32,159 bases of DNA, taken from positions 1 to 32,159 of the forward strand of contig JAGVKG010000035.1 in assembly GCA_020050685.1 (NCBI GenBank). The letters are read 5' to 3'. The position numbers and the translations under genes are program-made. Positions 8,556 through 19,596 of this stretch are shown here, piece after piece (the stretch's first letter is position 1; every line of letters begins with the position of its first letter). Source of the stretch: Candidatus Obscuribacterales bacterium (lineage in GTDB: Bacteria > Cyanobacteriota > Vampirovibrionia > Obscuribacterales > Obscuribacteraceae). The notes beneath the pieces were generated by a model that was not told where the DNA came from, did not search any database, and saw only the letters and a list, made by a program, of their open reading frames with translations.

Positions 8556-9893
8556 ATGATTCTGCCAAAACCAGTTATTTTGATTATTCACCAGACGCGG
8601 CAAGCAGCAGCTTATGCCAGTGTGCTGGAAAAGACTGGTGCTAAAGTGCATGCAGCCACTTCTTTTGAAGAAGCAAATGAGCTTTTGTCTTTCCTCAGCC
8701 CGGATTTGGTTTTGTTGGCTGCGCATTTACCAGATGGTGATGGCAGGCTGTATTGCCAACAAATCCGTGCCACTTTATTGCATCCGCGGCCGGTGCTTGT
8801 GCTCTTGCATGAAGGTGATGATGTGAATGAGAGGATTAAGTCATTCCGTTTTGGAGCAGACGATGTGCTTGCCGATCCGATAGATAAAAACGAATTGGCA
8901 ATCAGAATTTTGGCTCACTTGCGCAGGCGTCAAGAAGAGCTTTCCAACCGGCTGACTCAATTACCGGGACCGAGCGTTATTCGGCGAATGCTTGAGCAAT
9001 GTTTGGTATCAGAAAGGCCGTGGGCAGCTCTTTCGGTTGACTTAAATAATTTGCGTGTTTATAACGACACTTATGGCGACATCGCCGGTGATCAGCTGAT
9101 TAAGGCACTGGGGGCAATTCTCTGTGACACGGCCTCCGACAACGATTTTGTTGGCCATGTGCAATCGGATGATTTCTTGATGATTGTTGATTTGGAATCG
9201 GCTGAGGCAAAGGCCGATTCTATTTGTCGCAAGTTTGATGCCATATCCAAACGTTTTTATCCTCCTGAGGATTTGGCACGTGGTTATTTGGTGGCAGCCG
9301 GACGTGGGGGTATTGCCCGTCGCGTACCGTTGATTTCCATTGCCATTGGTATTGTTTCCAGTGCCACCACTTCATCGACACGGAGATTCCCGAGCTATGT
9401 CGATGTGTTAACGGCGTCTGATGACTTTCGCTTGGCGGCAAAGACGCGTTCTGGCTCAAGCTGGGTTTGTGACTATATGTTGACGCCGGAACAAATTCAT
9501 AGCTGTGATTATCGCTCAAGAATTCTTGTCGTTGAGCCGGATGGTGCCATGGCATGTTTGCTTGAGGAAAACTTGGCGCTTGAAGGCTATGTTGTGCAAG
9601 TGACAAATTCTGCTGATGATGCTTTGGACATTGCTCGCAGTCAGCCGCATCCGGATTTGATTTTGCTTGAGTCCAATTTAGCAGACAGGCAAATGGATGG
9701 TTGGAACTTGTGCCGCACGCTCAAGGAAGACCAAGACTTGCGCGAGATTTGGGTAGTGATGGCAACTGCCCATCCGGATCAGTCGCTTGCCTTGGAAGCT
9801 GGTGCTGATCTTTATTTGCCTAAGCCTTTTGATATCCCATCGCTCTTGAAAGAACTTTCCGTTCTCTTGCGCAATGAATTTGCGAAGCGCTAA
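8556..9893 (+). CDS. REC-GGDEF-REC protein with degenerate signature residues
   Basis: The 445-residue product has a receiver-like domain at ~7-122, a GGDEF-like domain at ~155-305 and a second receiver at ~322-440. The first receiver has lost the acidic pair (LIIHQ), the phosphoacceptor (DLVLLAAH, Ala55) and the conserved Lys (LADP). The GGDEF domain keeps the substrate-binding DLNNLRVYNDTYGDIAGDQL helix but the signature loop is VQSDDF (202-207), so cyclase activity is unlikely. The second receiver keeps acidic residues (VVEPD) and LPKPF (Lys423), but the phosphoacceptor is Glu372 (DLILLESN), which can mimic a phosphorylated Asp. It is therefore probably a phosphate-independent scaffold or ligand-binding protein in the same operon as the kinase. 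The upstream GAGG overlaps the kinase stop region. Confidence 0.85.
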   Translation: MILPKPVILIIHQTRQAAAYASVLEKTGAKVHAATSFEEANELLSFLSPDLVLLAAHLPDGDGRLYCQQIRATLLHPRPVLVLLHEGDDVNERIKSFRFGADDVLADPIDKNELAIRILAHLRRRQEELSNRLTQLPGPSVIRRMLEQCLVSERPWAALSVDLNNLRVYNDTYGDIAGDQLIKALGAILCDTASDNDFVGHVQSDDFLMIVDLESAEAKADSICRKFDAISKRFYPPEDLARGYLVAAGRGGIARRVPLISIAIGIVSSATTSSTRRFPSYVDVLTASDDFRLAAKTRSGSSWVCDYMLTPEQIHSCDYRSRILVVEPDGAMACLLEENLALEGYVVQVTNSADDALDIARSQPHPDLILLESNLADRQMDGWNLCRTLKEDQDLREIWVVMATAHPDQSLALEAGADLYLPKPFDIPSLLKELSVLLRNEFAKR

Positions 9894-15738: not shown

Positions 15739-17340
<1,602 letters not shown>

Positions 17341-17488
17341 CTTACGGCTTTCCAAGGGAACAACCTAGGTAGCCAAGGGAAGCATCCCAAAGCTCAGGCT
17401 TAGACCTGGACCTCACGACCATGTAACTGCGGAGTAATTTGCAGGCGCACAACCCAAGGGACTCTACGAGTTAGCCGGGTACCGTAAG
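17341..17488 (+). promoter_or_regulatory. Candidate riboswitch leader (cyclic-dinucleotide type?)
   Basis: A closing helix pairs CTTACGG (17341-17347) with CCGTAAG (17482-17488). Inside are hairpins GGG/CCC, CAGG/CCTG, CTGC/GCAG and ACTC/GAGT. Segments resemble the c-di-AMP ydaO/yuaA class: GGGAAC, then GGGAAGCATCC, and a 3' end with AGTTAGCC...CGTAAG directly before the ribosome binding site. Other parts (CAAAGCTCAGGC, TAGCCGGGTACCG) look equally like the c-di-GMP GEMM-I class. I cannot decide the class by eye. The 3' strand of the helix abuts AGAGG, the Shine-Dalgarno of the secreted protein gene at 17500, so the fold could directly control translation. Confidence 0.5.
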
Positions 17489-17499
17489 AGGACAAACCG

Positions 17500-18249
17500 A
17501 TGGAATCCTTTAGTAAAGCAATCATTGCCTCTGTAATAACGCTTACTTGCGTGTGCTTCAATTGCCCGGCTCAGGCAGTCTTGTTGCACGGTTATCTTGA
17601 ACGGGAAAGCGGACAGGAAGTTGCACCCGTGAATACCGACGACCAAGCGCGGGCTGAAATTTTGGCAGAGGCGGCGTCAAATCTTGATCAATCGCTCAAG
17701 CTTCATCAAGCAATCAGTCTTAATTCTGGCGTCGAGAGATCTTGCTTGCAAACTCAGGGCGCGCAAACTCAAGCTTTGCCGGCTCAAGCTGATGTCCCGC
17801 CACCGGCCAATTCTTTTCCTTATGCATACGTCGGTACATGGCGTTGCGTTTCAGAAGTAATTGATTCGCAAGTTGATTCAATTGAACAGGGCAAAAAGAT
17901 TGTCTCCGATATTGTCTTTGCTGTCGGTCGTGATGGTCGAGTGGTGGCGCAATGGAATCAGCCCGGCTGGAGCCAGACTAATGCGCAAGTCACCACCTTC
18001 AACGCTCAGGAAGCAAAATTGGTGCGTACGAATTATTATGCAGATGCCGGCGCTGATGGTTGGTGGGCAGCGCGCTCATCTGATCAATTCAAACAAATAT
18101 CCGCTGATCAAATGGTGGCACAAAGCTATGTCGACCAATACGTGGCTGGCGACTACAAAGGTCGCTATCACACCAAGTCCATGCTCTTCCGCGTATCAAA
18201 AGAGGCTCCGCGTGGCATAGCCTTGTCGGCTAACCCGTTAGCTAAATAG
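17500..18249 (+). CDS. Secreted protein of unknown function
   Basis: I do not recognise this 249-residue protein. It begins with a clear Sec signal peptide (hydrophobic residues ~7-24, cleavage near CPAQA-VLL). Residues ~25-110 are Gln/Ala-rich and likely flexible. From about residue 108 there is a compact region starting YAYVGTWRCVSEVIDS and rich in aromatic residues and beta-strand-like alternation (GRVVAQWNQPGWSQ, DGWWAARSSDQFKQI, YKGRYHTKSMLFRVS), which may be a lipocalin-like or other beta-barrel fold; that is a guess. AAGAGG lies 8 nt before the ATG. Its long folded leader suggests tight control by a small molecule, and it is convergent with enolase, 21 bp away. Confidence 0.7.
   Translation: MESFSKAIIASVITLTCVCFNCPAQAVLLHGYLERESGQEVAPVNTDDQARAEILAEAASNLDQSLKLHQAISLNSGVERSCLQTQGAQTQALPAQADVPPPANSFPYAYVGTWRCVSEVIDSQVDSIEQGKKIVSDIVFAVGRDGRVVAQWNQPGWSQTNAQVTTFNAQEAKLVRTNYYADAGADGWWAARSSDQFKQISADQMVAQSYVDQYVAGDYKGRYHTKSMLFRVSKEAPRGIALSANPLAK

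Positions 18250-18270: not shown

Positions 18271-19596
<1,326 letters not shown>

Follow-up and report, generated by a model that had tools for sequence, protein, structure and literature searches.

A conserved GEMM-I-like RNA lacking the contact base G20 encloses the Shine-Dalgarno sequence of a secreted-protein gene in Obscuribacterales

The leader of a gene for a secreted protein (gene X) in a Candidatus Obscuribacterales bacterium contains a real structured RNA at positions 17411-17491 of the window, which is the whole 32,159-nucleotide stretch of DNA analysed (contig 35 of the 4.2-Mb draft genome G000, 98.7% complete). Its structure is conserved, it is reciprocally similar to genuine GEMM-I (c-di-GMP-I, RF01051) RNAs, it lacks the contact base G20 and it holds the Shine-Dalgarno sequence inside its basal helix, P1. 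On balance, we consider it a divergent GEMM-I-fold element that would act as a translational OFF switch over the Shine-Dalgarno sequence, with a remodelled pocket whose ligand is likelier to be other than canonical c-di-GMP. It is probably a switch of this kind whose specificity for a ligand has changed or been lost, and for which we infer ligand binding, the direction of control and the changed specificity alike.

The + strand leader is flanked by a divergent adenosylhomocysteinase gene (15739-17013, -) on one side and by gene X on the other; gene X converges on an enolase gene (18271-19590, -). Relatives of the window are recorded under Candidatus Obscuribacterales, Obscuribacter and Melainabacteria, which are non-photosynthetic Cyanobacteria. 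No DNA similarity of the locus to plasmids was found. The features of the leader are listed in Table 1.

Table 1. Features of the gene X leader, in window positions
Feature	Positions	Strand	Basis or remark
-10-like box GATAAC, presumed promoter	17336..17341	+	G here in 26/28 aligned leaders, at fixed distance to the 5'-end motif; from comparison of leaders
5' arm CUUACGG of the earlier proposed helix	17341..17347	+	Between the -10 box and the inferred +1; probably outside the RNA
Inferred +1 (17347/17348) and conserved mRNA 5' end GCTTTCCAAGGGAA	17347..17360	+	28 leaders share TTTYCAAGGGNA at a constant distance
Variable 5' domain with hairpins	17361..17410	+	Folds and sequence comparison; a single hairpin instead in G002 and G018
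Conserved GEMM-I-like element	17411..17491	+	Fold, three-genus conservation, reciprocal models
P1 5' strand CCUCACG	17411..17417	+	Pairs with 17483-17485 and 17488-17491
J1/2 ACCAU	17418..17422	+	Genuine GEMM-I RNAs of the class have one base more here; U17422 at the place of G20
First hairpin (crystal P2)	17423..17448	+	GUAA loop 17434-17437; C17446 corresponds to C44
J2/3 ACA	17449..17451	+	Canonical J2/3 is one base shorter; A17449 corresponds to A47
Second hairpin (crystal P3)	17452..17480	+	AG bulge; G17474 corresponds to G83
C17482 (corresponds to C92) and P1 3' strand CGU-AA-GAGG	17482..17491	+	
Shine-Dalgarno AAGAGG	17486..17491	+	Inside P1; 8 bases before ATG 17500
Gene X	17500..18249	+	Secreted protein; C-terminal eight-stranded barrel predicted; no Pfam/NCBIfam family
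Gene X start codon and first codons (MESFSK...)	17500..17549	+	

A structured RNA conserved in three genera and its relation to GEMM-I

The same element precedes the orthologous gene X in two other genera, represented by the genomes AlinenLipids_bin-9350 (G002) and Obscuribacterales SW_5 (G018). The RNA of the window shares 77% identity with that of G002, compared to 54% for the gene X coding DNA and 47% for the protein. Alone, the window leader folds no more stably than its shuffles (z -0.61). Folding of the three RNAs together with alifold gave z -5.0 relative to column shuffles (0/500), with several pairs changed on both sides, a z-score that depends on a hand-adjusted alignment in which one G002 gap was moved. 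Covariation counts alone, on the unadjusted alignment, were not decisive, as expected because there are three sequences only. P1 (CCUCACG paired with CGUAAGAGG) takes in the Shine-Dalgarno sequence and closes a junction of two hairpins; the fold, the compensatory changes and the reciprocal models described below all agree with the P1 and two-hairpin junction of c-di-GMP-I RNAs. A sequence-only reading of this DNA had proposed a 148-nt riboswitch at 17341-17488. The inner hairpins that it described are present and the 3' arm of its closing helix does touch the Shine-Dalgarno sequence, but its boundaries are replaced by those of the conserved element.

Of the 53 genomes of the order Obscuribacterales, 44 yielded an orthologue of gene X, and only three of these 44 carry the element, which is therefore dispensable for gene X. 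No further credible copy was detected in the 53 genomes of the order or in 289 of the class. As to a single or repeated origin of the element, G002 groups with G018 in the gene X tree, which does not settle the placement of G000.

A cmscan search over all Rfam families matched the window element, at full length (17413-17487), to RF03168 (c-di-GMP-I-UAU) with 27.1 bits and E 8.7e-4, short of the gathering score of 65.9. At gathering scores no Rfam family matched the window element, and no riboswitch family of Rfam matched the elements of G002 and G018. With RF03168, its best Rfam match, the window element shares a U at the place of G20; it differs in its far lower score, in having C rather than U at the place of 92 and in its unmatched G002 and G018 counterparts. 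RF01051 was not found in the 53 genomes of the order, this genome included; across the phylum, 14 of 386 genomes gave RF01051 matches above cut-off, and the same class accounts for some of these. The sequence-only reading had noticed segments resembling GEMM-I and had called the RNA divergent, fitting the consensus in part, which agrees with this match. Of the signs that it had named as refuting it, a fold without conservation in relatives does not apply, as two relatives keep the fold, although no Rfam model reaches its gathering score.

We built one model (R1) from the three Obscuribacterales RNAs only and another (R2) from 16 genuine GEMM-I RNAs, with 90.6% of cells paired and covariation above all 500 shuffles. 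On 74 kb of sequence, the 13 best matches of R1 all fell on known GEMM-I positions in the correct orientation, with scores up to 27.4 bits, and the best unrelated place scored 12.0. R2 ranked the element first within the window (27.1 compared to 11.9 bits for the next match) and first among the 53 genomes, where the next match (21.4) was in an open frame. The G002 (13.6 bits) and G018 (7.3 bits) elements also ranked first in their own loci, at low scores; G018 alone would not convince as a GEMM-I relative. A match of R1 in G024 was rejected as AEKAAAEK-repeat coding DNA, and its matches in G032 (20.3 bits) and G146 (22.1 bits) were weak. Weak R2 matches in G005, G006, G042, G019, G050 and G036 were likewise set aside, as they overlap open frames or lack intact helices.

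The element and the GEMM-I RNAs of the phylum have sequence in common, for example GGGACUC-GAGU-AGCCGGGU. Shared with RF01051 are P1 with its bulged A's and two hairpins, a first hairpin that opens with a 2-bp helix and then an internal loop, the AG bulge of the second and, in the window copy, C44-G83, A47 and C92. P1 also adjoins the translation start, as in genuine GEMM-I RNAs of the class, where the same P1 with its AA bulge stands directly before start codons of genes whose products have signal-peptide-like starts. The element differs from RF01051 in the missing G20, the two junction lengths and contacts that vary among the three copies, as well as in the lack of RF01051 matches in the order. 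These similarities suggest that the element probably descends from, or closely mimics, a c-di-GMP (GEMM-I) riboswitch, with common descent the likely source. An unrelated structured leader, for example a protein-binding or thermosensing one, that converged on a GEMM-I-like shape would fit the weak GEMM-I model scores of G002 and G018 and the absence of RF01051 from 53/53 genomes. We regard such convergence as very improbable, given that the profile models match reciprocally at exact positions both ways and given the sequence held in common.

Six loci from a different family of this class (L141, L146, L147, L150-L152) carry genuine GEMM-I RNAs a few bases before genes whose protein products are related and have signal-peptide-like starts (DYDSLIV...RLMY...).

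The resemblance to ydaO/yuaA (c-di-AMP) riboswitches put forward in the sequence-only reading did not hold up. A cmscan search for RF00379 in the 401 bases around the site gave no match at E up to 10, which excludes a ydaO/yuaA identity at this sensitivity, and the architecture is different. What the element has in common with that class is the cyclic-dinucleotide theme, together with a diadenylate cyclase in the genome, which the sequence-only reading had proposed to search for. In addition to this one enzyme the genome encodes 17 GGDEF domains, so c-di-GMP and c-di-AMP are both plausible messengers. The window itself encodes a response regulator with a GGDEF domain (8556-9893) in which QSDDF replaces the GGDEF signature; judged by this signature, it is probably not an active cyclase.

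A pocket without G20

In the Vc2 riboswitch, G20, A47 and C92 contact the ligand, C44-G83 joins the hairpins and A95 is bulged in P1 (PMC3764141, PMC4744006). Mutation of G20 in Vc2 was reported to lower c-di-GMP binding ~30,000-fold, and in Vibrio cholerae Vc1 mutation of the equivalent base, G12, did not fully abolish binding (PMC4744006). The G20A form binds cGAMP and the G20A/C92U form allows c-di-AMP (PMC7288161), and the cGAMP-variant pattern at positions 20 and 92 of GEMM-I is supported by PMC7288161 and PMC7266159. Natural GEMM-I variants of altered specificity are few, c-AMP-GMP being the one named (PMC7266159).

The window copy keeps C44 (17446), G83 (17474), A47 (17449), C92 (17482), the bulged A's and the GNRA loop. 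G20, the J1/2 base that contacts G-alpha of the ligand, is absent in all three copies, with U in the window and A in G002 and G018. J1/2 reads CG-ACAAAG-GC in canonical relatives of the class, CG-ACCAU-GU in the window, CG-ACAAA-GC in G002 and CG-AGUAA-GC in G018. All three copies have one base less before the first hairpin and one base more after it, junction lengths unlike those of all 16 genuine GEMM-I RNAs compared. In the register used, the places of A47 and C92 hold A and C in the window, U and C in G002, and A and U in G018; with the register moved by one base, G002 would read A20-A47-C92. Judged from sequence, the C44-G83 interhelical pair is present in the window and G018, and G002 lacks C44. 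The loop of the first hairpin, which in GEMM-I RNAs is a GNRA loop that docks into the second hairpin, is GUAA in the window and GCAAU in G002, and G018 has no GNRA loop.

Because G20 is lost and the junctions on either side of the first hairpin have each changed by one base, the pocket appears to be remodelled, and canonical c-di-GMP is therefore less likely as the ligand than a cyclic dinucleotide that is different or is read less strictly. As a ligand, c-di-GMP is not assured, and because the base whose mutation was reported to weaken c-di-GMP binding so strongly is missing, we do not class the element among c-di-GMP riboswitches; it probably works in the manner of a GEMM-I element. The cyclic-dinucleotide riboswitch suggested in the sequence-only reading thus stands as a GEMM-I-type RNA, and is weakened as to its ligand by the missing contact base. 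G002 and G018, with A where G20 would be, and G018 also with U at 92, resemble in these bases the c-AMP-GMP (cGAMP) GEMM-I variants and the engineered G20A/C92U form, from which the element differs in its altered junction lengths. More tentatively, the element may belong to a GEMM-I-derived riboswitch subclass of Obscuribacterales, its pocket rebuilt by the deletion of G20 and by an insertion on the facing strand to take some other ligand, whether another cyclic dinucleotide or a nucleotide signal; such a riboswitch would govern translation of a secreted barrel protein.

The main rival explanation is a GEMM-I descendant that no longer binds a ligand and whose fixed hairpins lower translation through the Shine-Dalgarno sequence in P1. 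Loss of G20 in every copy, loss of other contacts singly in G002 and G018, the many gene X orthologues that manage without the element, and an additional pair, U-A or A-U (17422-17449 in the window), that can close the pocket are all consistent with it. We nevertheless hold it somewhat unlikely, in view of the strong conservation of the junction and P1 while gene X drifts, and of A47, C92, C44-G83, the bulged A and the GNRA loop, which the window copy keeps. Quite unlikely is an ordinary working c-di-GMP (or cGAMP) riboswitch with a pocket that tolerates the missing G20, as C92 and A47 of the window, the residual binding of the Vc1 mutant and the binding of cGAMP by G20A would permit. The loss of binding reported for the Vc2 mutant and the junction lengths, different from 16/16 genuine GEMM-I RNAs, argue against it.

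Transcription start and the proposed closing helix

The leaders of 28 gene X orthologues could be aligned without gaps on GATAA-N7-GTTTYCAAGGGNA. Numbered from the C of CAAGGG, G at -17 is kept in 26/28 and G at -5 in 27/28, and the C, GGG and A are invariant. This arrangement fits a -10 box, a putative +1 and a conserved mRNA 5' end. The spacing before gene X is fixed in the window (17336-17360) and the 27 other leaders, from ~20 genera, although the leaders are otherwise unrelated; the motif may be an operator over the transcription start or a conserved mRNA 5' end. TTTYCAAGGGMA occurs in this genome as a single copy, that of the 5'-end feature at 17347-17360. The 5'-end motif is partly complementary to the start-codon region, in excess of controls (10/28 leaders at or below 5% of controls, mean rank 0.23) among genomes that are not independent. 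We leave this pairing as a lead because of that non-independence and because some of the 28 leaders have no such complementarity. In the window leader CCAAGGGA occurs three times (17352-17360, 17374-17382 and 17453-17460), and relatives keep the first copy only. Gene X leaders of one genus (g21: L028, L032, L033, L039, L040 and L066) lack CAAGGG and have GGAACTTT followed by GGGTTAATCC, possibly another type of promoter. Upstream of the leader, a good sigma-70-like promoter sequence, TTGACG-N16-AATAAT (10/12), is seen at 17214-17241, from which a longer transcript is possible.

The 7-bp closing helix of the sequence-only reading is correct as pairing, CUUACGG at 17341-17347 being complementary to CCGUAAG at 17482-17488, and is near chance level, since 8% of dinucleotide shuffles (82/1000) and 9% of ordinary 159-nt window pieces (18/200) have a Watson-Crick helix of 7 bp with a span of at least 100 nt. 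It is without counterpart in G002 and G018. Folding from 17335 gave this helix, and folding from the inferred +1 at 17347 gave P1 instead; with transcription starting at 17347/17348, the 5' arm would stay untranscribed. We rejected the helix as a chance-level pairing whose 5' arm is probably untranscribed, with the caveat of the promoter-like site at 17214-17241. A 148-nt aptamer closed by this helix, for c-di-AMP (ydaO/yuaA) or of a new class, is extremely improbable. In its favour, the helix would be the minimum-energy choice if transcription began upstream of 17341, as the sigma-70-like site would permit, and the genome encodes a diadenylate cyclase. The chance-level helix and its lack of conservation, a 5' arm between the inferred -10 and +1, and the unmatched RF00379 all speak against it.

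Gene X and the control of its translation

The sequence-only reading had described the downstream product as a secreted protein of no recognised family, and in agreement gene X matched no family in Pfam or NCBIfam; a sequence search against solved structures gave nothing significant. Its conserved C-terminal domain starts with GxWxC and is predicted to form an eight-stranded barrel. Among solved folds, the CpeS lyase and DUF3598 come closest to this barrel, and these matches are weak (low TM-scores and a best E of 9e-4, with a whole-chain model at pLDDT 68). Lipocalin/calycin-like is the most we would say of this predicted product. For the collection scan we used a closer set of gene X sequences because the alignment from all genera was too variable; it returned 32 loci, all from this group and largely from genomes already searched.

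In the mechanism that we propose, the two hairpins would stack on P1, whose 3' strand contains the Shine-Dalgarno sequence. When the junction closes and P1 forms, through ligand binding or folding alone, the Shine-Dalgarno sequence would be buried, and a closed junction should therefore mean that the secreted protein is not translated. Opening of P1 would let ribosomes enter and gene X be translated.

A GEMM-I variant whose missing base is considered essential for the ligand, and which was retained in three genera as its gene drifted, would allow the evolution of the GEMM-I pocket to be tested directly. It would also bring gene X, which matches no known family and is widespread in a largely uncultured cyanobacterial order, under second-messenger control.
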